Below, one piece after another: positions 2,954 through 34,431 of a stretch of DNA of 34,431 bases; position 1 is the first letter of the stretch; each line of letters opens with the position of its first letter. The stretch comes from Pseudomonadota bacterium (GTDB lineage: Bacteria; Pseudomonadota; Gammaproteobacteria; Steroidobacterales; Steroidobacteraceae). A program made the position numbers and the translations under genes. Under the pieces are notes generated by a model that had not been told where the DNA came from, searched no databases, and was given only the letters and a program-made list of their open reading frames with translations. The stretch lies in contig JAJZFQ010000287.1 of assembly GCA_021805275.1 (NCBI GenBank), positions 1-34,431 of the forward strand, in the 5' to 3' direction.

Positions 2954-4507
2954 TCAGGGATCCTCTGCCGAGCGTTCGACTTCGTGCGGCGCGGAGCAGT
3001 ATCGTGTGATGAACGCCTCGTGAGTCGGCATCGCCTCGGCGGCCTGCTGAATGCTGCGGTGCGCGAGCGCGAGGCGCTGCCTGAGCGAATCGTCCGCGCC
3101 CACTGCGGCTACAGGATCGGCACGCTGCGGAACGATTCCCTGGCCGAGCAGCACGGCGATCCAGCTCGTCTCGAGGAATAATTCGTGGCCGAGCGGAATC
3201 AGTCGGCCGTGGGCCCGGAAATGCGCGATCTTCTCGGCGAGCAGTTCCGGGATCGACATGTCGCGGCAGTAGCGCCACAGCGCGCTGTCACGCCGCTGCC
3301 CGGCTTTGTAATGCAGGATGATGAAGTCGCGAATCCGCTCGAATTCCAGCCGCGACTGCCGGTTGAACTCCTCACGCAAGCGTGGCTCAAAATCCCGATC
3401 CGGTAGATAGCGCAGCAGCCGCGTGAGCGCCGTCTGGACGAGGTGGATGCTGGTCGACTCCAGCGGTTCGAGAAATCCGCCTGCCAGCCCCAGCGCAACG
3501 CAGTTCTTCGCCCAGGCGAGACGGCGCATGCCGGTGCTGAAGCGGATCGTGCGCGGCTCGGCGAGCGCTTCGCCTTCGAGGCTGCCGAGCAACGCCTCGG
3601 CAGCCTGATCCGGGCCCAGATGCTCGCTGCAATAGACGTATCCGTTGCCGACCCGATGCTGCAGCGGGATACGCCATTGCCAACCCGCCTCGCGTGCAGT
3701 CGCGCGCGTGTACGGGGTCAGCGGGCCGGTACCCCGGCACTGTACGGTCACCGCCCGGTCACACGGCAGCCACGCACTCCAGTCTTCATAGCCGGAATGC
3801 AACGCCTGCTCGATCAGCAGCGCGCGAAACCCGGTACAGTCGATGAACAGGTCCCCCTCGAGTCGCTCACCGCCCTCGAGCCGCAGCGCCTCGATGAACC
3901 CATCCGCGGCTCGCAACTCGACTTCGAGCACCCTGCGATCGTGCCGGATCACGCCGTGTTGCTCGGCGTAGCGGCGCAGAAACCGTGCGTACCGCACCGC
4001 ATCGAAGTGATAGGCATAGGTGAACCGCGAAGCGACCGAACGCGGATCCTGGCTCGGCCGACTGAAACGCCCGAGCCGAGCCGCGCGTGCCGCGAGCGAG
4101 AACTCCTCGAGGGGCGGTGCGCCCCCGAGCGCGTTCAGCCGCAACCAGTAATGATGAAACTCGGTGATCTCAGGCGCTGCACCGTAGAAGCCGAACGGAT
4201 GGAAATACCGGTGGCCCGGTCGCATCCAATCGACGAACTCGATGCCGAGCTTGAAGGTCCCCCCGACGCTGCGCACGAACTCGTTCTCCTCGAGCCCCAG
4301 CAGCCGGTTGAACGCGTGCAGCGGCGGAATCGTCGCCTCACCAACACCAACCGTGGCGATGTGCGAGGATTCGATCAGCTCGATGCGGCAGAACTGTGTG
4401 CCCAACACCCGCGAGAGCGCTGCGGCCGCCATCCAGCCGGCCGTGCCGCCACCGACGATGACGATGCTGCGCAGGCGCCGTTCAGAAGACCACTGGGATG
4501 TCGTCAC
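2954..4507 (-). CDS. Flavin-dependent tryptophan halogenase family protein (copy 1)
   Basis: 517-residue FAD-dependent halogenase-family protein. These enzymes use FADH2, O2 and halide to make HOX, which a lysine directs to an aromatic carbon. Visible are the FAD motif GGGTAG (19-24), GVGEATIP (54-61), the lysine equivalent to the catalytic one (Lys86 in [10 protein letters not shown]), the family motif WQWRIP (276-281) and FLEPLES near the flavin. No signal peptide is seen, so it is probably cytoplasmic. An open frame extends to 4897 but lies in copy 2; I chose GTG 4507, which lies 17 nt past the end of copy 2 and follows CAGGGG. It is a clear paralogue of copy 2 (shared SW..LG.G.VPQR and MPTH.AFI blocks). 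Substrate unknown; no flavin reductase gene is nearby. Confidence 0.88.
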
Positions 4508-4523: not shown

Positions 4524-6032
4524 TCACGCCGGGCGCGAGAGCGCGCTGCGGCGCTCGATGAATGCTTGATGCGTCGGCATCGTGCGGGCCACCCGTTCGA
4601 TGCGCTCGCGTCGCTGCTGCATCGCCCGCCGCAGCTCGGCGGCATCGAGCCCCTCGATCTGCGGATCGTAGCGCTGCGGCACGCACCCCATGCCGAGAAA
4701 GATCGACACCCAGCTCGATTCGCGATAGGACTCCTCGCTGTACAGCGGCACTTTCGCGCACGCGCGCCACACGTCGATCTTGTGGCGCAGCGTCTCCGGC
4801 AGCGGCATGTCGCGACAGTATCGCCAGAACTCCGTGTCCTCGCGCGTGCTGAGGCAGTAATGCAGGATGAGGAAATCGCGGATGCGCTCGTACTCATTGC
4901 GCGTCAGGCGGTTGTATTCGGCTGCCACAGCCGGATCGAAGCGACGATCCGGCAGGAACTCAATCAGGCGTGCCGCGGCATTCTGGATGAGCTGGATACC
5001 GCTCGACTCGAGCGGCTCGAGAAAGCCCGCCGCAAGACCGATCGCGATGCAGTTGCCCACCCACGCGTTGCGCCGCAGGCCAGCGGTAAATCGCAGCTGG
5101 CGCAGCTCATCGAGCGCAGGCCTCTCGAGGCTGCCGGCCAGTTGCTCGGCCGCATGCTCGTCGCTGAGGAAGCGGCTCGAGTAGACGTAACCGTTGCCAA
5201 GCCGCTGCTGCAGAGGGATGCGCCACATCCACCCCGCCGCCTGTGCCATCGCTACGGTGTACGGTGTCGGTTCCACCTCGCGCTCGCACGGCACCACGAC
5301 CGCTCGGTCGCAGGGCAGCCACTGCGACCAGGACTCGTAGCCGACCTGCAGGGCCTCTGCGATGAGGCGCGCGCGAAAGCCCGACGCATCGATGAACAGG
5401 TCCGCATCGATTTGCCGGCCATCCGCCAAGGTCAGGCCGGCGATGAATCCGTCGTGCGGCCGCAGCCGCACATCGGCCACCAGACCCTCGGTGCGCCGCA
5501 CGCCGTTGCGCTCCGCGACCGCGCGCAGACACCGGACATACCCGCTCGCCTCGAGATGGTAGGCGTACCGATAGGCCGCAGCCGGCGAGCCCGCCTCGCT
5601 CGCGGGCGGGGCGAACCGGCCGAGCCTACCGGCAACGTACGGGAAGGAATACGCCCCCAGCGGCGTCGGATCGCCGAGCGCGCGCAACCGCAACCAGTGA
5701 TGATGCGGTGCGATGCCATCGATGTCGGCGCCAAAGTCCCCGAAGAAATGGAAGTGACGCCCGCCCGCCGCACACCAGTCACGAAATTCGATACCGAGCT
5801 TGAACGTCGCTGAACTCTGTCGCAGCAGCTCGCCCTCCTCGATCCCGAGCAGACCGTTCAGCGCGCGGATGATCGGTACGGTGGCCTCGCCGACGCCGAT
5901 GGTACCCAAGTCCTCGGACTCCACCAGCTCGATCGCGACGCGGCCGCGCAGAAACCGCGCCAGCACCGCCGCGCTGATCCACCCCGCGGTACCGCCGCCG
6001 ACAATGACGATTTTCTCAAGCGGTCCGGCCAT
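4524..6032 (-). CDS. Flavin-dependent tryptophan halogenase family protein (copy 2)
   Basis: 502-residue FAD-dependent halogenase-family protein directly upstream of its paralogue. It has GGGTAG (12-17), GVGEATVP (46-53), the presumed catalytic lysine (Lys78 in [10 protein letters not shown]), WMWRIP (268-273), FLEPLES, and the C-terminal MPTHQAFIE block. ATG 6032 follows an AGGGGGG stretch; the longer open frame to 6191 has no reason to be used. It lies 82 nt after the receptor gene, separated by a strong hairpin. Family biochemistry predicts halogenation of an indole or other electron-rich aromatic ring. Neighbours suggest a role connected with the receptor or its cargo, not a diffusible antibiotic. 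Confidence 0.88.
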
Positions 6033-6114: not shown

Positions 6115-9100
6115 TCAGAACTGCATACGCACCGCAAGGGCCACGGTCCGGTCCGTGGTCGTCCAGCTGTAGATCGGCGCGAACGTGGCACCGCCGACGT
6201 CGATCTTGGTGCGCGACTGCAGGATGTTCGTCGCTTGCAGTCCGACCTTCAGGTAGCGGTTGACGTCGTAGAACACCTCGCCGTCGAGCTGACCGTAATT
6301 CTCCATCCAGGCCGGCTCGTTGAGGTTGGCCGCCGAGGTCGTCAGCAGGTAGCGCTCGCGCCAGTTCCAGGCCAGTCGCCCCTCGACGTGGTGATTCTGA
6401 TACATCACCGCCGCGTTGTAACTCCAGCGCGACATGCCCTCGAGCGGCAGGTTCTGATCCTGCGCCCCGCCGCCGCGGCAGGAGTTCTGGTTCACGCCCG
6501 CACTCGCCGTCACCGTACTGCCCACCTCGCAGTTGTTGAACACGTTGATCGCGGCGTTCGAGCCTCCGGCGCTGTCGACGAAGGTGAGATTCCCGGTGAA
6601 CCCCAGGCCCTGCAGGTACCACGGCAGGAAGTGGTAGAACTGCTGATACGCCAGCTCGAACCCTTTGACCGAGCCACGCTTGCCGTTCATGTTCTCCATG
6701 ACCTGGAAGGTCTGGGTCACGCCGTTGCGTGTAAACGTCTCGTTGTTCACGCCGGTAAAGATGTAATTACTGATGTCCTTGTAGAAGATGTCGAACGTGA
6801 TGTCGCCCGCCGGCGCGAAATACCACTCGAGACTCGAATCGAGGTTGATCGCCTCGATGGGCTTCAGTTCGGGATTGCCCGCCGTCCCGCTGGTGGCATT
6901 GACCAAAGCCGGCAGCGGCGTACTGCCCTGGAATCCGTAGCCGATGGTCTTGTAGGGCAGCATCTGGTCGAACGACGGGCGGGTCATCCCTTCGCTCGCC
7001 GCGATGCGCCACTGCAGATCGTGAGTCAGCAGGAAGCGCACGTTGAAGCTGGGCAGCACGTTGGTGTACGTGTTCGCCGGGAATGTGTACGGCGTGGCTC
7101 CGCCGTTGCCGGTGAATTGGATCGCGCTGGAGATGTACTGGCACTGCGTCGCGCTGTAGCCGCCCGAGAGGCAACTCGCCACCGAACCGGCTTTGATCGG
7201 AGCGATTTCGAGCACGCCGGTCGCCGGGGAGTCGACCGTGCGCACCACGCGCACACCGAAGTTGCCATCCATCGGGCCAACTGGCGTGTGGTGGTGGAAG
7301 TCCAGTTCGACGTACCCCGCATAGGTATGCTGCGCCTGGTCATTCACACCGTTGGCGGCGTTATCGGCGCTGAGCGGACTGTAATTGTTCCAATTGGTGG
7401 TCTCCGGCGTCCAACCCCAGCCCGCGCCGCTCGCCTGCTCGACTGACTGCAGCACGGAGTTGTAGGCGTACTGGGTGCCGTTGCGCACCAGTTGGTAGGA
7501 GGGAAAGATGCCTCCGCCCGGATACGGGACGCTGCCGCCCATGAAGTTGCTGAAGCTCTCGTACTGGGTGGCCCAGCTCGGGGAAGCCGTGATCGGCACG
7601 GGCTTGCCGCCGAACTGGTAATCCCACGACAGCAACGACCAGTTCCAGTTGCCCTCACGAGTGATCGCGTGACGATCCTCGACCCGCGCACCGAAACGGA
7701 AGTCATCGAGCCAAGGGTTGTGCTCGAACTTGACGGTGCCGTCGAGGCGCTCCGCCCACTGGTGCGCGTCATTGTTCTCGATGTGATCCATCGCGCAGCA
7801 CCACCAGTAATCGGCCGGGTTGTTCATCTCGTACGGAGTCTGGCTGAGCTGCATCGTCGGGGAGTTGGCGGCGGTGTTGAACGTGAGCCACTGACCGCCG
7901 GTGGCGCCGCCCAGCGGCGCTCCGCTCGGCAGCGTGCCGACCTGCGTGTAGGCCGTCATGCTGACCATGTCGGCATGCGACTGCACGTACTGCACATCGC
8001 CGCGCAGAGAGAAATCCGCAGTCGGCCGCCAGCGCAGATCGGTGGTGAACATCTGCGTCGAGTGATGGTCCTTCTCGTAGCGGGTATCGAGCTGTGGGGT
8101 GAACCACACCTTGCCGGCGGTCACCACGCCCGCGGGCGTAACGCTGGTGTAGCTCGCGGTCGGGCAGTATCCGGAACAGCCGGCGGCCGGGGTCGGCCCC
8201 GGTGCGCCGAGATACTCCCCGTAGCTGCCCTCGGCATGCTCGAGGTCGGTCGGGTTGTCCTTCGTCTGAAAGGCGTGCGCGGTGAACAACCAGGTATTAT
8301 TGGGCGACTCCCACTGGAAGACGCCATCGAGCGCCTGGCGGTTCTGCTTCCAGTCAAGACGCCGCCAGCCCATCGAGTTCGGCACGTACACCGTCGAGCC
8401 GGCCGGCAGGCCGGCTTCGGCGACCGGCAGCGTCTGTGCGACGTAGTCGCCAAGCTGGATGCTGTCGGTGCGATTACCCTCTTGCGCATAGGTGCCCGAG
8501 AGCAGCACGCCCATTTTACCGATGCCGGTGTGCCAGTAGTTACTCCACAGGGCATTCACGGTCGGGAAGCCCTGCTTGATCATGTCCCCGTACTGGTAGT
8601 TCGCCGAGAAGGCCGTCAGGTTGTGGCGGCTCGTCAGCGGTTTGCGGGTGACCATGTCGACGACGCCGCCAATTCCCCCCTCGATCTGGTCGGCGGTCGG
8701 GCTCTTGTAGACCTTGATCGCGGAAAGCAGGTCCGGGGAGATGTCCTCGAAGCTGATCTGACGGCCATCGTTGGCCGAGAAGATCTCCTCGCCGTCGAGT
8801 TCGCTCTTGACCCAGGAGAGGCCACGAATGAACACATTGCCGCCGGAGTCGGTAATGCGCGCCGGATCGCGATTGTTATCCGTACGCTCGATCATCACAC
8901 CGGGAATGCGCTCGAGCGCCTCCGCGACGCTGCTGTCGGGCAGCGCGCCGATATCCTCGGCCGTGACCGCATCGACGATCTGCGGCGCATTGCGCTTGAT
9001 CGCCTCGGAGGAAATCATCATCTGGCGCAGACCGCTCACCACCACTTCGTGCAGCAGCGCCGGCGGTGATTTCGGTGCCGGCGAGGTGCCGCTCGCCGGG

Positions 9101-9267
9101 GCCGTCGCCGGCTGAGCCGACTCCGCAGGGCGGCTCTGTGCCTGCGCGGTCTGGGACATCGCCAGCACCAGCGCCAGCGCGGTTGCGGCGGCCGGGACTC
9201 GAAGCGGCACCGAGGACAGATCCACGGCGCGGACATGGCTGCGGCGACGATGCAAAGGAATAGCCAC
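6115..9267 (-). CDS. TonB-dependent outer-membrane receptor (Xanthomonas/Caulobacter type)
   Basis: 1050-residue outer-membrane receptor. Order: signal peptide (hydrophobic 25-40, likely cut after AQA near 43), an Ala/Pro-rich linker, a TonB-box-like HEVVVSG (73-79), a plug (about 95-205; VDAVTAEDIGALPDSSVAEAL), then a large beta-barrel ending in aromatic Phe (VRMQF). The plug sequence and size fit the group common in oligosaccharide uptake in Xanthomonas and Caulobacter. The likely cargo is a xylan-derived oligosaccharide, inferred from the operators and neighbours. The start is GTG 9267 after GAGGGGGG; an ATG in between is out of frame. Two halogenase genes and an exported protein follow. 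Confidence 0.92.
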   Translation of the reverse strand: MAIPLHRRRSHVRAVDLSSVPLRVPAAATALALVLAMSQTAQAQSRPAESAQPATAPASGTSPAPKSPPALLHEVVVSGLRQMMISSEAIKRNAPQIVDAVTAEDIGALPDSSVAEALERIPGVMIERTDNNRDPARITDSGGNVFIRGLSWVKSELDGEEIFSANDGRQISFEDISPDLLSAIKVYKSPTADQIEGGIGGVVDMVTRKPLTSRHNLTAFSANYQYGDMIKQGFPTVNALWSNYWHTGIGKMGVLLSGTYAQEGNRTDSIQLGDYVAQTLPVAEAGLPAGSTVYVPNSMGWRRLDWKQNRQALDGVFQWESPNNTWLFTAHAFQTKDNPTDLEHAEGSYGEYLGAPGPTPAAGCSGYCPTASYTSVTPAGVVTAGKVWFTPQLDTRYEKDHHSTQMFTTDLRWRPTADFSLRGDVQYVQSHADMVSMTAYTQVGTLPSGAPLGGATGGQWLTFNTAANSPTMQLSQTPYEMNNPADYWWCCAMDHIENNDAHQWAERLDGTVKFEHNPWLDDFRFGARVEDRHAITREGNWNWSLLSWDYQFGGKPVPITASPSWATQYESFSNFMGGSVPYPGGGIFPSYQLVRNGTQYAYNSVLQSVEQASGAGWGWTPETTNWNNYSPLSADNAANGVNDQAQHTYAGYVELDFHHHTPVGPMDGNFGVRVVRTVDSPATGVLEIAPIKAGSVASCLSGGYSATQCQYISSAIQFTGNGGATPYTFPANTYTNVLPSFNVRFLLTHDLQWRIAASEGMTRPSFDQMLPYKTIGYGFQGSTPLPALVNATSGTAGNPELKPIEAINLDSSLEWYFAPAGDITFDIFYKDISNYIFTGVNNETFTRNGVTQTFQVMENMNGKRGSVKGFELAYQQFYHFLPWYLQGLGFTGNLTFVDSAGGSNAAINVFNNCEVGSTVTASAGVNQNSCRGGGAQDQNLPLEGMSRWSYNAAVMYQNHHVEGRLAWNWRERYLLTTSAANLNEPAWMENYGQLDGEVFYDVNRYLKVGLQATNILQSRTKIDVGGATFAPIYSWTTTDRTVALAVRMQF

Positions 9268-9497: not shown

Positions 9498-10487
9498 TTG
9501 AAGAAACATCGCCGACTTGAGTCATTCCTGCGCAATCGGTTGAATATCCGGCAACTGTCCTTCATTGCCGAGCTCGATACGGCCCGTTCCGTGGGCGGCG
9601 CGGCCCAGGCCGTTGGAATGTCCCAACCGGCCGCCTCGACGCTCTTGAAGGGATTCGAAGAGGCACTCGATGTCCAGCTGTTCGAGCGCCACGCCCGCGG
9701 CATCGTCCCGACGGAGTACGGCGAGGTCCTCACTCGTCACGCGCGCGCGATCATCGCCGAGCTCGACCAGGTGCAGGAACAGATCGCCGCGTTGAAGTCC
9801 GGCCTCGCCGGTCAGGCAACGATTGGCGCGGTGGCAACGCCGGGGACGAATCTCGTGCCCTACGCGGTGGCCCAATTGAAGCAGCAGCACCCGCGCCTGT
9901 TGATCAGTATCGACATCGACTCCAGCCGCCCGCTGATCGACCGGCTGCTGCGCGGGCAACTCGACATGGTCGTGGGCCGCCTGCTCGATGCGCAGGGTGC
10001 CGGTGAGCTCCAGATGGAGCCGCTCGCCGGTGAGGTGCATGCGGCGATCGCAGCCGCGCAGCACCCGCTCGCGGCCAGACCCCAGGTGCGCCTGGAGGAC
10101 CTGCTCACCCAGCTGTGGATTCTGCCACCGCCGGGGAGCCTCCTGCGCGAGCGACTCACCGCGGTCTTCCAACAGCGAGATCTGCCCATGCCGCTCAACG
10201 TCGTCGAAGCGCAGTCATTGACGGCGATTCTCGGCCTGCTGCATGCCGCACATGCCGTCGTGCCGCTGCCCTGCGAGATCGTGCAGCCGCTGTGCGACTC
10301 CGGCGACCTGACCGTGCTCATCGAGGATATCGGGCTTGATCTCGGCCCGTTCGGCTTGATCACGCGACGCCAGCATCGGCTCTCCGCAGGCGCACAGGCG
10401 CTGGCGGCAGCCCTGCGCTCGACCGCAGCGACGCTCTACGCGCGCTCCTCGTCCGGGAGTGAACCGTTGGCGCCCAGCTCGAGGTAG
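9498..10487 (+). CDS. LysR-family transcriptional regulator
   Basis: 329-residue LysR-type regulator. The N-terminal winged helix-turn-helix (about 15-75; SVGGAAQAVGMSQPAASTLLKGFEEAL) and linker helix are followed by a two-lobed effector domain (about 105-310) starting GQATIGAVATPGTNLVP, which resembles the GbpR sugar-responsive subgroup. It is divergent from the receptor operon, so it probably regulates that operon and itself with a sugar or sugar acid as effector (inference). The start is probably TTG 9498; TTG 9540 is a shorter option beginning just before the helix-turn-helix. Its last 52 nt overlap the 3' end of uxuB on the other strand. Confidence 0.88.
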   Translation: MKKHRRLESFLRNRLNIRQLSFIAELDTARSVGGAAQAVGMSQPAASTLLKGFEEALDVQLFERHARGIVPTEYGEVLTRHARAIIAELDQVQEQIAALKSGLAGQATIGAVATPGTNLVPYAVAQLKQQHPRLLISIDIDSSRPLIDRLLRGQLDMVVGRLLDAQGAGELQMEPLAGEVHAAIAAAQHPLAARPQVRLEDLLTQLWILPPPGSLLRERLTAVFQQRDLPMPLNVVEAQSLTAILGLLHAAHAVVPLPCEIVQPLCDSGDLTVLIEDIGLDLGPFGLITRRQHRLSAGAQALAAALRSTAATLYARSSSGSEPLAPSSR

Positions 10488-15780: not shown

Positions 15781-17727
15781 TCACTGCACCGCGAACGCGC
15801 GGTACGAATGGGGCGCGAGCCTGACGACGAAGCTGCTCTGCCCCTGTTCGCTCGGCAACGGATTCGGCGTGATGAGCGGCGAGGACAGCACCGTGCGCCC
15901 CGAGGCCAGATCGAGCAGCTGGCGAGCCCCTCGATGTACGAAGATGCGCACCGTCACGGGACGCGCCAGATACGACTCGACGACGAACGTGTGATTGCTA
16001 TAGGCGAACACTGCGACGTGCGCCGGCGCGTTGATGCGCACCGGGAAGTTCGCCAGCAGATACCCCCGCAGTGTATTCAGCACGGGTTCGGGCAATCGGT
16101 AGAGATCTCCCATGTTGCTCGGAACGTCCAGCACGTAGAGTTCCCCGCGCGAATAACCGGTCATCAGCAGCAGCGGCACGCCATGAGCCGACGCCTCCCC
16201 TTCGACCACCGGCCAGCTGTCGTTGGTGTAGAAGCGAATCTCCGGGAAGACGATCCGCGCCGCGCGTTCACCCGGAACGTTCAGTCCCGCAGTGGTGCCA
16301 CCGGCAATGCTGCCCAGATAGTGCCGCACCATGATCGGCAGTCCGGTGTAGGTGATGTCGGCGATGGCGCGGATTCCGCGATGCTCCTGCTCGAGCGTGT
16401 GCAGCAACCCGGAGGTGATGATCACATCGCCCCCGGCCTTCAACCGCGCCTGGATCTTCGCCACCAAGTGCGGGTCGGCCGCCGCCTCCGCGCTGAGCAG
16501 CACGATCGGAGCATGCCTCGGGAAGTGCGGCTCGAGATTGATCGGGATGCCGATGTTGCCCAAGTAGTTCTGCAGGAAGTCCTCGCCGCTTGACTGGAAC
16601 GGTTTGTAACTGGCGATCCCGATCGGGTGCCCGAGCTTGCCGAGAATTTTGTCGACTTTGCCGAGCGCATAGCCGGCAACGCTGGCCCAGCCCGGCACCG
16701 CCTCGCTGCCCGGTGGCGCCTTGAACGCACGGACCATGGCGTTCCAGTCGAAGCTGGTGCGATCCGCCGCCCAGGCATAGCGTGCACCGGGGCTCACCGC
16801 CTCGGGCACGGCGAGCTGTGGCCAGCTGAACAGCGTGATTTCCGGCGACTTGGCGAACAGTGTGTCCCAGAGCTGCTCGGCGTAGCGATCGACGTACCGG
16901 TCGCCGAAGGTATCGACCCAGCCGCCCTTGTCCCCGTGCGGGCGGATGTTGTGATAGTAGCGGTAGATCAGATAGCTCTCGTACTGCTGAAGCATCTGCG
17001 CGGTGTGCACCGGATCGCGAGTCTCGGTGCCGGTGTAGATGCCGCTGAACATCTTCGCCTCGCGGTCCAGATCGAAGCCCAGCCCTTGGAAGTGCTCGTA
17101 CCAGTTCGGGTACTTGATGATCACTTTGGCATGCGGGTTGACCTGGCGCGCCGTATCGATGATCAGATGCTGCGCCACCCAGCGCATCTTGCGCAGCCGG
17201 TACTGCGTCCAGCTGAGGGACCCCTTGGCCTTGATGTCGGCGTTGCTGCGCGTATTGAAGAACGTGAAATCATCGAGAATGATGGTATTGAAATGGCCCG
17301 CCGCCATGCGCACCGCGCGCTCGCAGATCGCGACGTCGTGCGGGTTCTCGAAGTCAAAAGAATTGTACTGATTGTACTGGTTGCGACCGGCGAACAGCGT
17401 GATGCCGCCGTCTACCGTGATGCCTCGGCGGCGAAAGAACGCCGCGATCCGATCGAGCGTCGCCGGGTCGGCGAACACCTGGTCGCGGTACACCTCGAGG
17501 TACACCTTGTTGAAGTGCACCTGGCTCCAGATGCGCTGGAACTGTCGACGCAGCGTCTGCGGGTTGGCAAGCTGCCGAGTCGAGGTGACTGGGATGTACA
17601 CCGCGACGCTGAAGTTCTTGTATGGGCGCACCGCGGTGCGGGCGGGCGCAGCGCCACCCGTCCCCGCGCACAGCACCCCGCACAGTGCGGCCAGCATGCC
17701 CGCTGCTCGATGGATTCGCCTCATCAT
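15781..17727 (-). CDS. Large exported protein, putative glycoside hydrolase of unassigned family
   Basis: 648-residue exported protein whose family I cannot name. A signal peptide spans about 1-27. Residues about 38-340 read as a TIM barrel: FSVAVYIP, VYLEVYRDQVF, RRRGITVDGGITLF, FNTIILDDFTFFNTR (paired Asp at a barrel strand end), KVIIKYPNWYEHFQG, SGIYTGTETRD and ITLFSWPQLA, all plausible sugar-site elements. Residues about 400-480 (IVLLSAEAAAD, LKAGGDVIITSGLLHTL) look like the Rossmann-like glutamine-amidotransferase-type domain seen in GH42-like enzymes, and a beta-rich C-terminal domain follows. It is last in the transporter-manD operon. ATG 17727 follows GAGGGG. A role on (glucurono)xylan fragments is inferred from context only. 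Confidence 0.7.
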   Translation of the reverse strand: MMRRIHRAAGMLAALCGVLCAGTGGAAPARTAVRPYKNFSVAVYIPVTSTRQLANPQTLRRQFQRIWSQVHFNKVYLEVYRDQVFADPATLDRIAAFFRRRGITVDGGITLFAGRNQYNQYNSFDFENPHDVAICERAVRMAAGHFNTIILDDFTFFNTRSNADIKAKGSLSWTQYRLRKMRWVAQHLIIDTARQVNPHAKVIIKYPNWYEHFQGLGFDLDREAKMFSGIYTGTETRDPVHTAQMLQQYESYLIYRYYHNIRPHGDKGGWVDTFGDRYVDRYAEQLWDTLFAKSPEITLFSWPQLAVPEAVSPGARYAWAADRTSFDWNAMVRAFKAPPGSEAVPGWASVAGYALGKVDKILGKLGHPIGIASYKPFQSSGEDFLQNYLGNIGIPINLEPHFPRHAPIVLLSAEAAADPHLVAKIQARLKAGGDVIITSGLLHTLEQEHRGIRAIADITYTGLPIMVRHYLGSIAGGTTAGLNVPGERAARIVFPEIRFYTNDSWPVVEGEASAHGVPLLLMTGYSRGELYVLDVPSNMGDLYRLPEPVLNTLRGYLLANFPVRINAPAHVAVFAYSNHTFVVESYLARPVTVRIFVHRGARQLLDLASGRTVLSSPLITPNPLPSEQGQSSFVVRLAPHSYRAFAVQ

Positions 17728-19121: not shown

Positions 19122-20420
19122 TCATGCGTCCGCCAGGGACACGGGGGTCAGCCGCGGCGCGAGCAGCTGGAACAGACCGAGGGCGATGATGTACATGCCG
19201 CCGGCCAGCGTAAACAGCAGCGAATAGCTACCGGTCGCCTGCAGCAGGTAGCCGACCGCGGTGGACACCAATGCGCCGGAGACGGCGCCAGCGAAACCGC
19301 CGAGTCCGACGGCAGAGGCCACCGCTGCGCTCGGATACAGATCGGACGTCGTGGTGAACAGGTTCGCCGACCAGCCCTGGTGCGCCGCAGCGGCCAATCC
19401 GATCAGCGCCACCGCCGCCCACAGCGAGTGCACTTCAGAGGTGAACACGACCGGCACGACGGCGATTGCGCACAGCAGCATCGCGCCCTTGCGAGCGCCA
19501 TTGACGCTCCAGCCGCGGCGCATCAGCCATCCGGCCATCCAACCGCCGCCGATGCTGCCGGCATCGGCCATGACGTACACGGCGATCAGCGGTGGACCGA
19601 GATCGGTCAAATTGAGCCCATAGCGGTGAGCGAGATACTTCGGCAGCCAGAACAGCAGGAACCACCACACCGGGTCGGTGAGGAACTTGGCGACCACGAA
19701 CGCCCAGGTCTGCCGGTGCCGCAGCAATTCGCGCCACCGCACCCGGCGCGCCGGCCCAGCCGGCGCTGGATCATCGGCACGGATGTAGGCAAGCTCCTCG
19801 GGGCTGACCTTCGGATGCTGGCCCGGGGGGCGGTAGACGATGAGCCAGGTGATCAGCCACAGCGCGCTCAGCACGCCGGTGAGTAGAAATCCGGACCGCA
19901 GCCCCCAGAGCGACACCGCGACCGGCACCACCAGCGGGGCGATCAATGCGCCGATGTTCGAGCCGGCGTTGAACAGCCCCGTAGCCAGTGCTCGCTCACG
20001 GCGCGGAAACCACTCCGCGACGGTTTTCACCGCCGCTGGAAAGTTGCCCGACTCCCCGAGCCCGAGCAGGAAGCGCACCGCCGCGAACTCCAACACCGTG
20101 CGCGCCAGCGCATGGCTCATCGCCGCGCAGCTCCACAGCGCGATGGCGAGCGCGTAGCCGAGTCGCGTACCGAGCTTATCGATGAGCGCCCCGGCAAACA
20201 CCAGGCCGAGTGCGTAAGCGATCTGAAACGCCGCGACGATGTCGCCGTAGTCGACCTGGGTCCAGCCGAGCGAATGACCCAGCGCCGGCGCGAGCACGCC
20301 GAGTACCTGGCGGTCGATATAATTGAGCGTGGTCGCCCAGAACAACAGTGCGCAGATTCGCCACCGGTAAGCGCCGAGGCGAGCGGTGGAGTCCCGCACT
20401 GACTGAGGCTCGACGGCCAT
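19122..20420 (-). CDS. MFS transporter, hexuronate (ExuT/anion:cation symporter) family
   Basis: 432-residue inner-membrane permease with about 12 hydrophobic segments. Family blocks are visible: [15 protein letters not shown] after the first helix, [62 protein letters not shown] and the second-half [10 protein letters not shown]. These are typical of the ACS family containing ExuT, which imports glucuronate, galacturonate or aldonates with protons. Its position upstream of manD, and near uxaC and uxuB, points to glucuronate or a related uronate. ATG 20420 is the start; a ribosome site is weak. First gene of a three-gene operon (gaps 79 and 64 nt). Confidence 0.9.
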
Positions 20421-29319: not shown

Positions 29320-30345
29320 TCAGCGCACCAGCGCCGCGCCGCCGCGCAGCAGCGCTTCGAGTTCCTCGGCCGTGGCCTGGTTGAAGTCCGTGCCGAGCGA
29401 GTGCTTCAGACTCGCGGCGGCCGCTGCGAACTCGAGGGCGTGCTGCGGATCGAAGCCGCCGCGCACGCCGTAGAGCAGGCCGGCGGCAAAGGCATCGCCA
29501 CTGCCGATCCGCTCCACGATGCCGCGCAGTTCATGCGTGCGGGAGCGAAAATCCCCGTCCCGCGTCACACAGGCGGCCGACAGCGTCTGCTCGTCCGGGC
29601 CGCGCTCGAGCCGAAAGGTGCACGCCACCTGGCGCAAGTGCGCAAAGCGCTCGAACGCCGCGCGCGCGGTGCGCGCGTACGAATCCGCATCACTCGCCGT
29701 CGGCGCCGACTGCCCGAGCATCAACGCCAGGTCGAACTCGCTGGCAAAGAGCACCTCGGCGTGCGCGGCGATGCCCGCGAGCCGCGTGCCGGCCTGCGCG
29801 GCACGGCCCTGCCAGAGCGAGGGGCGGTAGTTGCAATCAAAGGACACTCCCAGTCCCCGGTCACGCGCGGCGCGGACCGCCGCGAGCAGCGCCTCGCCAG
29901 CCGCAGGACCGAGTGCTGCCGTGATGCCCGACACGTGCAGCCAGGCGCACCCCTCGAGCAACGTCGCCCAAGGCAGCTTGACGTCCAACGCGCGGCAGAA
30001 GGCCGAATCCTCGCGGTCGTACACCACCCGCGCCGGGCGCGCACCCGCGCCGCGCTCGAGGAAATACAGGCCCATGCGGCCCGCAGCACGGCGCACCGCG
30101 GTCGTATCCACCGCATGGCGGCGCAGCTCCGCCAGCGCTCGCTCACCGAGCGGGTTGTCCGGCAACACCGTGATCATCGCGCTCGGGGCCCCGAGGTGGG
30201 CCAGCCCGATCGCCACGTTCGCCTCCGCACCGCCGACGTAAACGCGCAGCTCATCGGCCTCGCTCAGGCGCTCCCCGCGCGCCGCCGCGAGCCGCAGCAG
30301 CATCTCCCCGAAACACGCGATCCGGCCCGGCTCACGCAGGGTCAA
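29320..30345 (-). CDS. kdgK: 2-keto-3-deoxygluconate kinase (PfkB family)
   Basis: 341-residue cytoplasmic PfkB-type kinase forming KDPG, the last uronate step before aldol cleavage. Visible: N-terminal FGEMLLRL, the glycine pair block YVGGAEANVAIGLAHLG, the KDG-kinase-like FDCNYRPSLW, and the anion-hole/base motif GSGDAFAAGLL (Asp284). Substrate is inferred from FDxNYRPxLW and from uxaC, uxuB and manD nearby; other sugar kinases of the family are possible. The start is TTG 30345, whose TGA overlap (TTGA) with a short upstream frame suggests coupling or a decayed upstream gene. No LacI-type operator was found close to it. Confidence 0.88.
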   Translation of the reverse strand: MTLREPGRIACFGEMLLRLAAARGERLSEADELRVYVGGAEANVAIGLAHLGAPSAMITVLPDNPLGERALAELRRHAVDTTAVRRAAGRMGLYFLERGAGARPARVVYDREDSAFCRALDVKLPWATLLEGCAWLHVSGITAALGPAAGEALLAAVRAARDRGLGVSFDCNYRPSLWQGRAAQAGTRLAGIAAHAEVLFASEFDLALMLGQSAPTASDADSYARTARAAFERFAHLRQVACTFRLERGPDEQTLSAACVTRDGDFRSRTHELRGIVERIGSGDAFAAGLLYGVRGGFDPQHALEFAAAAASLKHSLGTDFNQATAEELEALLRGGAALVR

Positions 30346-30731: not shown

Positions 30732-31751
30732 TCACCCGCCTCGCATCAAGCGCATGATGCGCGCCCGCAGGTGGCCGTAATTGTCCGGCTTCAGCGGTCC
30801 GAGCAGCCCGTGTTGCGCCGCGGGCAGATGGCGCAGCGGATGGCCTTCCGTGCGGAACACGAAGTGATCGAAGAACGCCCGCCACGCCTGCCGCTCGGCC
30901 GGCGGACGTTCGGCGATGCTGATCATCGCCAGCAGCAGGCTGGTGTAGGGCGCATCCGGGCCGGCGCTGAAGGCGTCCCACCAATGGTTGACCATGACGT
31001 TGAACGGCGCCACCGCCTCGACCTGATGCCACCACAGCTTCGGCAGGTACAGCGCATCCCCGGGCTCGAGCTCGGCCACCAGCGCCTCGGCGCGGATCTC
31101 CTCGAAACGCGGAAAGCGCTGCGGGTCGGCGCCGTCCGCCGAGGCCGCCAGGCTCACCGGCGGACCGGCCATGGTGTGATCGATGGGCCCCATGTAGAGC
31201 CGACCGATCTGCTCCGGAGCGAACAGCGTGAAGCGGCGCTTGCCGGCCACCACACAGGCGAGATTGTCGAAGGTGTCGTAGTGGCTCGAGACGTTGGAGC
31301 GGTGCCCGATCCAGATGCGCGCACCGGCGCTCTGTGGCAGCAGCGGCGTGGGATTGGCCGCCATGAATCCCGGCATGCACTGCGGAACCGGTACCGATCC
31401 GACGTAGAGCGTCGCGCTCTCAGGACGCTCGAGCGTCTCGATCATCTGCCCGATGGCATCGAGAAACCTCATCGGTCGCCGCTCGAAGTTGAATCCCTTC
31501 AGATCCGCGGTGTAGTAGTACTTGCCGGCGATCGCCGGATCGCCGACGAACGCCTCGACCTGCAGTCCGGTATCAAAAGTCGCCAAATACTGCTGCAGCT
31601 GCCGCGGCGAGAGGCGGGCGGCCTGCACGGCCGGCCACGCATCGATGAGTCCGCGCAGCACGACGGGCTGGCACGGTTGGAGAATGTCGCGATGGAACTG
31701 CTCCGGTCCGCTCAGCTCGCGGCCGTCGATCTCCCTCGGGGCGCGTGCCAT
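30732..31751 (-). CDS. JmjC-like cupin (cupin_8) Fe(II) oxygenase
   Basis: 339-residue cytoplasmic protein of the JmjC/FIH-like cupin group: 2-oxoglutarate- and Fe(II)-dependent oxygenases that often hydroxylate protein side chains. The iron triad is intact: His157 and Asp159 in SSHYDTFDN and His242 in LPKLWWHQVE. The N-terminus (PVVLRGLIDAWPAV, about 29-42) is the typical entry to the fold, and LEPGDALYLP precedes the last His. Last gene of the receptor-halogenase-SapC operon (27 nt after SapC). The substrate is unknown; a protein or the halogenase product are possible targets (inference). Confidence 0.85.
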   Translation of the reverse strand: MARAPREIDGRELSGPEQFHRDILQPCQPVVLRGLIDAWPAVQAARLSPRQLQQYLATFDTGLQVEAFVGDPAIAGKYYYTADLKGFNFERRPMRFLDAIGQMIETLERPESATLYVGSVPVPQCMPGFMAANPTPLLPQSAGARIWIGHRSNVSSHYDTFDNLACVVAGKRRFTLFAPEQIGRLYMGPIDHTMAGPPVSLAASADGADPQRFPRFEEIRAEALVAELEPGDALYLPKLWWHQVEAVAPFNVMVNHWWDAFSAGPDAPYTSLLLAMISIAERPPAERQAWRAFFDHFVFRTEGHPLRHLPAAQHGLLGPLKPDNYGHLRARIMRLMRGG

Positions 31752-31778
31752 GCGAAATCCCTCGACTCGGCCGCGCGC

Positions 31779-32516
31779 TCAGCGCGCCGCGGCGTCGGGT
31801 GCGGCGGCCAGCCCCGCGGTGTGCTCGAGCAGACGCGCGTTCTTCACTCGCGCCATCTCGCGCACCTGTTTCAGCGAGGCGATCATGAGCTGGATCAGCG
31901 TCAGGTAGCCACGCCGGAACAGCTCGACCACCACCGCATCGGGCAGCCTCGCGAGCGTGTCCTGATTGATGGTGTAGAGGCCCTCACACTGGCGCAGTGT
32001 GCCGTCCTCGAACTCCACCTCGATGTCGATCGGCTCGATCAACTCGAGCTCGAGCAGACGGGTGATGAAGATCCGGGTGCGCTCGATGCCGGGCACCAGG
32101 TCCTGAAAGGCCCAGATGATGCTCTGCAGGTAGCGGCTCGGCTCGCCCTGTGCACTGAACAGCGGCTTGCCCTCGCCGACGGCGACCCGCGGGTGATCCA
32201 GGTCGACGGCGAGCCCCGGGCCCTGGGCGTAAAAGGGCTCGCGCTGCAGGCTGAGCGGTCGGTAGAACTGCGCGTCGCGCTGCCAGTCGTGAAGGAACTG
32301 ATTCTCTCCCGCGACGAACCCAAGCATCGCACCGCAGAAGAACTGGCCGGTCTGCGCCTCTTTGCCGAACAGGATCGGATAGTGCACCAGCAGATGCGGG
32401 AATTCATTGACGATCACCTGCACGAAGTGCCGGTTGTCGCCATAGGCGGCCGAGGCGCGCGCGTCGATCTTCAGTTCGCGGTGCGCTTCTTTGCTGAGCG
32501 GTACGATGTTCGTCAT
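31779..32516 (-). CDS. SapC family protein
   Basis: 245-residue protein of the SapC family, named after an S-layer-associated Campylobacter protein; its biochemical role is not established. Family features: N-terminal IVPLSKEAHRELKI, FVQVIVNEFPHLLVHYPILF (about 31-50), the QREPFYAQG block, LDHPRVAVGEGKPLF and the C-terminal LIQLMIASLKQVREMARVKNARL. No signal peptide or membrane segment is seen. It starts 12 nt after the halogenase and is co-operonic with receptor and cupin, an association seen around TonB receptors in Xanthomonads, Caulobacter and Sphingomonads as I recall. Confidence 0.88.
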   Translation of the reverse strand: MTNIVPLSKEAHRELKIDARASAAYGDNRHFVQVIVNEFPHLLVHYPILFGKEAQTGQFFCGAMLGFVAGENQFLHDWQRDAQFYRPLSLQREPFYAQGPGLAVDLDHPRVAVGEGKPLFSAQGEPSRYLQSIIWAFQDLVPGIERTRIFITRLLELELIEPIDIEVEFEDGTLRQCEGLYTINQDTLARLPDAVVVELFRRGYLTLIQLMIASLKQVREMARVKNARLLEHTAGLAAAPDAAAR

Positions 32517-32527
32517 GGCGGCGGCAA

Positions 32528-34075
32528 TCAGATCGGCTGCAGGCCGTATTGGTGAATCTTATTCAAAAGCTCGCGGTTCGTCGGCAGCCGCATGCTCAGC
32601 TCGCCGATCATCTTCTCATTATCCTGCACGCAGCGCCGCGCGGTCGCAGCGGTATCGATGGTCTCCTCGGCAGCCACTTCGGTCTTGAACCCCATGCCGT
32701 AGAGCACGTACTGGTAGCTCGCCGCCGGGAATACCTCCTCCAGCCGATCGAACTCATCATAGAACCACGGCGACTGGTAGCGCCAGAGCGTCAAGAGTTC
32801 CCGCAGCCGCTCCGGCACGGTCGCCGGATCGCAGTTGTCGCGCCAGAATGCGGTGTCGGTGCGCCGGGTCAGCACATAGTGCAGCTTGAGAAAATCGATG
32901 ATGCGGCCCCAGCGATACATCGTGGTCTCGTTGAACCGCTTGGCCACGAGATCCATGACCTCGTGGCAGGCCGGCAGCTGCTCGGCGAGCAGCTTCGCCG
33001 ACAGCTCCACCAGCACGATGGCCGAGGACTCGAGCGGCTCGAGGAAGCCGCTCGAGAGGCCCACGGCCACGCAATTGTTCTTCCAAAACGTCTCGCGGTG
33101 TCCGGCATGGATCGGGATCTTGCGCACCGGCAGATCGCGGTGCCGAGGCCCGATGTAGCGCAGCAGCGTCTCGCGCGCGGCCTCCTCGCTGGTATGGCGG
33201 CTCGAGTACGCGTAGCCGACCCCGCGGCGCGTCGGCAGACAGATATCCCAGGTCCAGCCGGCCTCGTGGGCCGTGGAGATGGTCTGCGAGGCGAGCGGTG
33301 CATCGGGAGATTCGTACGGCACCTGCACCGCGAGCGCCGTATCGCAGAAGAGAACATCGCCGCACTCGCGAAAGCCGACCCCTAGGGTCTTGCCGATCAG
33401 AAGTGCCGAAAAGCCCGTGCAGTCGATGAACAGGTCACCCTCGATCTGTCCGGCCTGGCGGGTGATCAGGCTTTCGATGTTGCCGGATTCACTTTGCCGC
33501 ACCGACTCGACATCGGCCAGCACGTGACGGACACCGAGCGTCTCGCTGCAATGCCGTGCGAGAAACACGCCCAATTTGCCGGCATCGAGATGGTAGGCGT
33601 AATTGGCCGGCGCCCGATACTCGCCGTGCGCAATGGTCTTTGGCGCAAGCCCGGCATCGCACAGCCGGCCTTGCGGAGTCACGAAATCACAAAAGCTGAC
33701 GGGGCCGCCGGCCTGTAGCCAGTGCGGCACGAGGTTCACCCGACTGAAGCCCTGAGGAACCATGAGGGGGTGGTAGTAGGCATCGTCGGCCTCACCGGTG
33801 GTCCAGCCGACGAACTTCGCCCCCTGCTTGAACGCCGCATCGCATTCGCGAAACAGCGCGGTCTCCGAGACGCCCATCCGCTCCAGCGTCGAGCGCATCG
33901 TCGGCCACGTGCCCTCCCCCACGCCGATCGTCCGGATTTCCGGAGATTCGATCAGCGTGATCGAAAGGCCGCCCGCCTTCATCCGAGCTTGATGGCGGGC
34001 GGCGATGATGCCTGCGGTGAGCCAGCCAGCGGTTCCTCCGCCGACGATGACGACCGCCTTGACAGGCTTGTTCAC
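32528..34075 (-). CDS. Flavin-dependent tryptophan halogenase family protein (copy 3, variant motif)
   Basis: 515-residue FAD-dependent halogenase-family protein, clearly divergent from copies 1 and 2. FAD motif GGGTAG (12-17), GVGEGTWP (51-58), the presumed catalytic lysine (Lys83 in DAAFKQGAKF), FLEPLES and the C-terminal LPTNRELL are present. The usual WxWxIP is WTWDIC here (274-279), with Cys279 in place of Pro. The start is GTG 34075, placed directly after the receptor stop TAG with no gap; an in-frame stop just before it excludes a longer protein. Translation is therefore likely coupled to the receptor. Whether it halogenates is uncertain. Confidence 0.87.
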   Translation of the reverse strand: MNKPVKAVVIVGGGTAGWLTAGIIAARHQARMKAGGLSITLIESPEIRTIGVGEGTWPTMRSTLERMGVSETALFRECDAAFKQGAKFVGWTTGEADDAYYHPLMVPQGFSRVNLVPHWLQAGGPVSFCDFVTPQGRLCDAGLAPKTIAHGEYRAPANYAYHLDAGKLGVFLARHCSETLGVRHVLADVESVRQSESGNIESLITRQAGQIEGDLFIDCTGFSALLIGKTLGVGFRECGDVLFCDTALAVQVPYESPDAPLASQTISTAHEAGWTWDICLPTRRGVGYAYSSRHTSEEAARETLLRYIGPRHRDLPVRKIPIHAGHRETFWKNNCVAVGLSSGFLEPLESSAIVLVELSAKLLAEQLPACHEVMDLVAKRFNETTMYRWGRIIDFLKLHYVLTRRTDTAFWRDNCDPATVPERLRELLTLWRYQSPWFYDEFDRLEEVFPAASYQYVLYGMGFKTEVAAEETIDTAATARRCVQDNEKMIGELSMRLPTNRELLNKIHQYGLQPI

Positions 34076-34431
34076 CTAGAAGCTGGCGCGCAGTCCAATG
34101 GTATACGAACGGCCGTAGTCTACCAGATTGAGCGTCTGGTTCTTAAACCGGCCATAGGTGTGGTACACCGAATCGGTCAGGTTCAGCGCCTCGAAATACG
34201 CAGTCAGATGCTTATTGATCGCGTAATTCGTGCTGAAGTCCACTTCCGTATTCGACGCCAGATACACCGGCTCGGCCCCGAACGCTCCACCGCTCTGCTC
34301 CTGTCCGAGCCCGAGCAGCTGGGAGGCCTGCCACTGCACCGCGAGGCGCGCCTGGATTCCGTGCTTCTGGTAGAACGCGATCAGGTTTGCCGAATTGCCC
34401 ACACCCGGCAGCGCGAACTGGTTCGAGGTCG
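34076..34431 (-). CDS. TonB-dependent receptor, C-terminal end (cut by window edge)
   Basis: The last 118 or so codons of a second outer-membrane receptor; the rest is beyond the right edge. Alternating strands, YLASNTEVDFSTNYAINKHLTAYFEALNLTD and the end GRSYTIGLRASF with a terminal Phe are typical of the last barrel strands and OM insertion signal. Cargo cannot be told from this part. The stop TAG touches the GTG of the halogenase gene, so the receptor heads an operon with halogenase, SapC and cupin; its promoter is outside the window. Confidence 0.88.
   Translation of the reverse strand, partial: TSNQFALPGVGNSANLIAFYQKHGIQARLAVQWQASQLLGLGQEQSGGAFGAEPVYLASNTEVDFSTNYAINKHLTAYFEALNLTDSVYHTYGRFKNQTLNLVDYGRSYTIGLRASF

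Follow-up and report, generated by a model that had tools for sequence, protein, structure and literature searches.

Carbohydrate utilization loci containing TonB-dependent transporters (CUT loci) in Xanthomonas and Caulobacter combine a TonB receptor with a transporter, degradative enzymes and a regulator, and the available text of the paper describing them also reports putative xylan and xylose CUT loci (PMC1790865). Here we analyze a 34,431-nucleotide stretch of DNA (hereafter the window) from a Pseudomonadota bacterium of the Steroidobacteraceae (assembly GCA_021805275.1, contig JAJZFQ010000287.1, positions 1 to 34,431), which holds the same kinds of genes and in which a TonB receptor is followed by a flavin-dependent halogenase-like gene, a SapC family gene and a Cupin_8/JmjC-type oxygenase gene. 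We find that this arrangement is a recurrent module and propose that it may act on its own receptor. In the main text of the CUT-locus paper the words halogenase, SapC and cupin are absent (PMC1790865). A search of the open-licence literature, in which absence is weak evidence, returned no description of the cassette, and no paper joining a halogenase with SapC or a SapC family protein with a TonB-dependent receptor.

The individual proteins have better known relatives. PrnA and RebH are halogenases of natural-product pathways, whereas QhpG and GoxB are flavin enzymes that mature other proteins and thus offer a precedent for protein targets. The SapC family presumably takes its name from surface-layer secretion loci of Campylobacter. 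For the halogenase BrvH and three halogenases of Xanthomonas, the available text of one report gives the native substrates as unknown (PMC7336383).

A receptor-linked module that recurs across families

The four-gene module lies on the minus strand and runs from the 3' end of the TonB receptor, which is cut by the window edge (34076-34429), through the PF04820 flavin-dependent halogenase (32528-34075, GTG start; 398.5 bits against a cut-off of 21) and the SapC family protein (31779-32516; PF07277, 192.9 bits against a cut-off of 28.9) to the Cupin_8/JmjC-type Fe(II) oxygenase (30732-31751; PF13621, 204.7 bits, and JmjC_2, 30 bits). The gaps between these open reading frames are 0, 11 and 27 nucleotides in that order, and reading frames and profile matches agree on the four genes that the first-pass annotation had named here. 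The 117-amino-acid receptor fragment scores 85 bits against TIGR01782, whose cut-off of 310 applies to the whole protein, and had no family match in a Pfam scan. Its full-length counterpart in the nearest genome compared (G001; L016:15202-18411) is a protein of 1069 amino acids whose last 117 residues are identical to the fragment (117/117).

To determine how widely the module occurs, we surveyed a single phylum, using 276 evenly drawn genomes of the window's class and a phylum sample of 397 genomes. SapC was present in 36 of the 276 class genomes (48 genes), PF04820 in 97 (83 above the cut-off, with many weak matches) and Cupin_8 in 35 (29 above the cut-off). A control genome, that of Caulobacter vibrioides, also contains the three families. 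Cupin_8 scores across the 397 phylum genomes were bimodal, with 66 matches at 197 bits or more and the next at 146.5, and the regions of all 66 were included in a set of 69 loci that covers 40 genomes and 13 family codes. A profile that we built found 72 distinct module-type cupins of at least 290 amino acids in these loci; 46 lie directly behind SapC and 46 directly before a halogenase. Within three genes, 63 of the 72 have a receptor, 63 a halogenase and 68 one or the other, leaving four with neither (L112, L128, L131 and L133). By contrast, none of 20 control Cupin_8 genes, taken from regions hand-picked among the lower-scoring matches, has a receptor, halogenase or SapC within three genes; three control regions (L193, L209 and L211) carried no central cupin label, and the most central gene was taken instead. 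Given this survey and its control, the co-occurrence is not due to chance.

The survey yielded 48 receptor-SapC modules, spread over 33 genomes and 10 family codes; 11 of them lie outside the window's class. Behind the receptor, three orders predominate (SapC-cupin-halogenase, 21; halogenase-SapC-cupin-halogenase, 15; SapC-cupin-halogenase-halogenase, 5) and the remainder are halogenase-SapC (4), halogenase-SapC-cupin (2) and SapC-cupin (1), so that 20 modules have two halogenases, 27 have one and one has none. Our own gene caller produced no SapC call in L032 and no cupin call in L098, and the gene run of L044 lacks a receptor. Genes are tightly packed, with median gaps of 21 nucleotides from halogenase to SapC, 4 from SapC to cupin and 18 from cupin to halogenase. 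Together, these data show a recurrent module with few fixed orders, not the random scatter that was the stated alternative when the arrangement was first annotated. The gap behind the receptor is longer, with a median of 173 nucleotides before a halogenase (range 0-305) and 141 before SapC (61-243). In the window it is 0. An attenuator or terminator may lie in the longer gaps. Four close relatives of the window module (L070, L075, L076 and L079) have a second Cupin_8 gene of 364-375 amino acids directly behind the first, which the window lacks.

Catalytic residues, halogenase clades and a third enzyme family

We next examined the enzymes of the cassette. The cupin retains the HxD...H triad as H157, D159 and H242, and this triad is kept in 88 of 88 aligned relatives. 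The halogenase reads GGGTAG at its GxGxxG site and possesses K83 and E349 at the catalytic positions, which we take from PrnA; the catalytic lysine and glutamate are each kept in 116 of 121 aligned halogenases. The intact triad first noted in the oxygenase is borne out, and both enzymes keep their catalytic residues. The nearest solved chains of the cupin are FIH, JMJD5 and JMJD7, most being protein hydroxylases, which is in line with the earlier remark that JmjC-like cupins often act on proteins.

A tree of 84 halogenases separates a proximal clade (between receptor and SapC, 21 rows) from a distal clade (behind the cupin, 41 rows), the two labels splitting with two changes; 19 of 20 two-halogenase modules hold one of each, and L049 holds two distal enzymes. 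Both catalytic residues are present throughout (21/21 proximal, 41/41 distal). WxWxIP is a motif of flavin-dependent halogenases, and its proline is missing in all 21 proximal and present in 36 of 41 distal enzymes. The proximal clade mostly reads WxWDIGLP and the distal type WxWxIPLQ, the latter as in 6y1w, which we take to be Xcc4156, and 9luq. Through the near-identical G001 gene in L016, the window's cassette halogenase falls in the proximal clade. Its site reads WTWDICLP, and because this departs from the motif, "halogenase-like" is the safer name for an enzyme whose halogenating activity is predicted. Its closest solved chain is 2pyx, given as an unpublished structure in the available text of PMC7336383, and its solved relatives include PrnA and RebH. 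Since the window's module has only the proximal halogenase type, with neither a distal halogenase nor the DUF6445 gene described below, it is a reduced form of a fuller cassette.

DUF6445 (PF20043) was found in 12 loci examined (L104, L101, L087, L106, L090, L121, L089, L107, L125, L046, L176 and L120), in 10 of them as the next gene after the last halogenase in a receptor-SapC module. Its predicted model (predicted local distance difference test score, pLDDT, 94.2) matches 2-oxoglutarate (2OG)-Fe(II) oxygenases and shares their double-stranded beta-helix fold, HxD...H metal triad and distal arginine; His116, Asp118, His206 and Arg224 are each conserved in all 12 sequences. By Z-score its best match is OGFOD1 (14.9; root-mean-square deviation 2.7 over 176 residues), followed by viral lysyl hydroxylase (13.8), after which Tpa1, prolyl and lysyl hydroxylases, PasI and PolD score almost equally.

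SapC and exported proteins

The AlphaFold model of the window SapC is of high confidence (pLDDT 95.1), and a structure search with it against the PDB returned no match. Receptor-linked SapC proteins nearly form a single clade (50 rows, with 2 changes of label). Of 34 other SapC genes, 23 have a protein of 1200 amino acids or longer within three genes, and 25 of 26 such giant neighbors are on the same strand as SapC. A giant lies equally near to none of the 50 receptor-linked SapC genes and to 13 of the 747 genes of L082-L141, a rough background from other genomes. We then scanned with Pfam 27 neighbors of non-receptor SapC from 21 loci, which we chose mostly by size and position. Secretion families were present in 10 of the 21 loci: ShlB-type exporters (L024, L029, L037, L056 and L066), a two-partner secretion exoprotein (L055), HlyD (L026, L034 and L062) and the outer-membrane efflux family OEP (L028 and L062). 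The neighbors chosen from the remaining 11 loci had no secretion match; they included a tRNA synthetase, malic enzyme, EF-G, FecR, dUTPase, a cyclase and proteins without any family match. Because secretion genes are among their neighbors, the giants are probably secreted, and the element common to non-receptor SapC loci would then be an exported surface protein. In SapC loci lacking a halogenase (L024-L066), the giants near SapC are cysteine-poor and several of the loci have two-partner or type I secretion genes.

As a crude test of export we compared the median best 12-residue N-terminal hydropathy, which is 0.48 for SapC, 0.87 for the cupin, 1.62 and 1.29 for the halogenases and 1.95 for the receptor. 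The halogenase N-terminus is a Rossmann strand in the six starts examined. SapC and the cupin thus lack an exported-type N-terminus by this measure, and all three proteins are probably cytoplasmic, as the first-pass annotation had supposed for the enzymes.

A proposed model for receptor maturation

What we infer from here on goes beyond the level of genes, residues and folds. The putative shared substrate of the cassette had initially been left open between the imported ligand and a protein side chain, and the giant-protein and secretion contexts of SapC tilt this choice toward an exported protein. Since a system that is probably cytoplasmic is tied to an exported protein, and since SapC loci appear to share an exported surface protein, we favor a reading in which the receptor precursor is modified and SapC serves as adaptor. 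Our leading explanation, which we hold tentatively and stop somewhat short of calling probable, is that the operon pairs a carbohydrate TonB receptor with a cytoplasmic maturation cassette that modifies the receptor precursor. SapC would hold or present the unfolded precursor before Sec export; the JmjC-type cupin, with its intact HxD...H, could hydroxylate a receptor side chain; and the flavin enzyme, with its lysine and glutamate in place, might halogenate or oxidise an aromatic side chain. The modified receptor would then be exported and inserted, with possible effects on its stability, its gating or its binding of glycans. Fuller versions carry a second halogenase as well and, in 10 loci among those examined, also the DUF6445 oxygenase. 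A broader form of this proposal, which we regard as possible but doubtful, is that SapC acts in the cytoplasm as an adaptor for proteins exported to the surface, and that its receptor-linked branch recruits the JmjC hydroxylase, one or two halogenases and often DUF6445 to decorate the receptor precursor before export.

To look for candidate target residues, we aligned 49 SapC-linked and 15 unlinked receptors and selected marker residues by scanning all columns. W422 is present in 48 of 49 linked receptors and 1 of 15 unlinked ones, N465 in 49/49 and 5/15, N867 in 49/49 and 3/15, W613 in 45/49 and 3/15, and Trp985, whose codon lies at 34331-34333 on the minus strand of the window, in 46/49 and 4/15. 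The stretch around W422 is poorly conserved (mean local conservation 0.30). This is a pattern predicted of a functional site, and a sugar-stacking tryptophan would look alike.

Several observations weigh against modification of the receptor. SapC-linked receptors are nearly one clade, so that these residues are confounded by phylogeny, and an independent-pair test yielded six pairs, almost all without a difference, and has no power. W422 occurs in only two of seven receptors followed by a halogenase alone; being missing in the other five, it is ruled out as a universal target. For these three reasons, we claim no receptor target residue. The co-evolution signal is operon-wide, with no single gene pair standing out, and in the 9 pairs that come from single genomes the receptor distances do not follow the cassette distances. 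Nor do the folds all point to proteins: the solved relatives of the cupin also include C2orf60, presumably a tRNA enzyme, the best Foldseek match of DUF6445 is PolD, and DUF6445 matches include enzymes acting on small molecules (PasI, HygX and GriE) and DNA (ABH2). The predicted DUF6445 fold is compatible with a protein or a small-molecule substrate and does not settle between them. Modification of the receptor precursor is predicted chemistry, and folds alone do not fix substrates. The operon-wide correlation, in which no pair of partners is singled out, would also be expected of a nutrient-regulated operon that is inherited together while its genes have separate roles and no pathway in common. 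We judge this decidedly unlikely, given that the same gene orders and pairings return across 10 family codes and that none of the 20 control Cupin_8 genes lies in such a setting.

Surroundings of the cassette and other candidate substrates

The module sits in a gene cluster that we read, from the families found, as of glucuronoxylan type. Family matches between 11958 and 29303 identify GH67, the glucuronate isomerase UxaC, an MFS transporter (19122-20420, Pfam scan), GH3, the xylulokinase XylB, GDSL, and CE15-like and AXE1-like esterases; downstream of the module on the same strand is a PfkB sugar kinase nearest to ketodeoxygluconate kinases (29320-30345, minus strand; matches below the curated NCBIfam cut-offs). 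A 638-amino-acid protein in this cluster (15781-17697) has no Pfam family match. Further along are a LysR regulator (9540-10487, family scan) and a second TonB-dependent receptor (6115-9225, minus strand; PF00593 and PF07715), so that two receptors, MFS, GH67, GH3, esterases and LysR occur in one locus, as in a CUT locus. Two more halogenases follow the second receptor on the minus strand, at 4524-6032 (PF04820, 585.6 bits; WMWRIPL) and 2954-4432 (602.5 bits; WQWRIPL), and the window scan found no SapC and no cupin beside this tandem. The halogenase at 4524-6032 lies in the distal-type part of the tree, and its three nearest solved chains include 6frl and 6y1w.

Genome G001 has 11 PF04820 matches on ten genes (nine strong), two SapC genes and one Cupin_8 gene. 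Seven of the nine strong halogenase genes are behind a receptor; of the others, one follows a xylose-isomerase-like barrel gene and one has no receptor in the stretch examined. The former (G001:C9:56298-57662; L017:3274-4779) is directly behind the PF01261 TIM barrel gene, with no adjoining receptor. The second SapC gene comes after a receptor and a halogenase, and a cupin is absent there. Receptor-halogenase pairs without SapC also occur in this genome (L019, L020 and L021).

Across the survey, 98 of 147 genes flanking the modules were scanned, giving GH3 (12), LacI (10), MFS_1 (6) and MFS_2 (4). As no flanking family exceeds 12, the sugar genes around the cassette vary while the cassette itself is constant. 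These surroundings bear on the main rival to receptor modification, which is that the enzymes act in the cytoplasm on the imported ligand or on an attached aromatic, in the case of xylan ferulate or lignin fragments freed by esterases. A lignin-carbohydrate setting such as the window, with its CE15-like and AXE1-like esterases in a glucuronoxylan-type cluster, is where this explanation is strongest, and the in vitro activity of BrvH and Xcc4156, relatives of the distal clade, on indole-type aromatics, as given in the available text of the two reports (PMC5945002, PMC7336383), likewise speaks for it and against a protein target. That the cassette elsewhere lies beside general sugar genes (98 neighbors) weakens this rival without being decisive, and the other partners of SapC are giants near secretion genes, not catabolic loci; on balance we think it rather unlikely. 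The relatives of the oxygenases often act on proteins, and LacI regulators are nearby (10/98 neighbors), so the cassette might instead modify some other protein, such as TonB/ExbB partners or an unlinked exported protein, with the receptor link reflecting the same nutrient need. However, the 25 commonest of the 123 families in the 98 neighbors include no conserved second exported protein, and we consider such a target quite unlikely. The kinship of the halogenase with PrnA and RebH would suit a pathway in which a small signal or siderophore-like molecule is built by the flavoprotein and cupins and taken back up through the receptor. Neither the scanned window genes nor the 25 most frequent flanking families include a synthetase or carrier family, and this explanation appears the least probable of those considered.

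Implications and relation to known systems

Tying halogenases to a receptor-SapC-oxygenase cassette points to a specific candidate for their substrate and yields a prediction that experiments can test directly, and it would offer a functional lead for both SapC and DUF6445. Should receptor modification hold true, it would represent a new kind of control over sugar uptake, in which nutrient receptors of the outer membrane bear halogen and hydroxyl groups added by enzymes; we know of no such receptor. A possible wider role of SapC with exported proteins merits separate study.

The kind of locus is known, and the oxidative cassette within it is undescribed as far as our literature search reaches. 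Its components can each be set against a described counterpart. QhpG and GoxB show only weak profile similarity to the window halogenase, which at 27.7 bits (cut-off 240) and 19.5 bits (cut-off 400), respectively, is far under the curated cut-offs and is not a member of either family. FIH, JMJD5 and JMJD7 share with the window cupin a JmjC/cupin similarity that includes HxD...H (residues 146-260 for FIH) at no more than 55.5 bits, and to our knowledge no bacterial target of enzymes of this type has been reported. Campylobacter SapC belongs to the same family, PF07277, as the window protein, and other members in our survey are also near giants and secretion genes; receptor-linked SapC differs from this type in being close to a clade of its own. 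Finally, BrvH (6frl) and Xcc4156 carry PF04820, like the cassette halogenase, and are near the window's other halogenase at 4524-6032, whereas the cassette halogenase belongs to the other clade, is nearest to 2pyx and reads WxWDIxLP instead of WxWxIPL.

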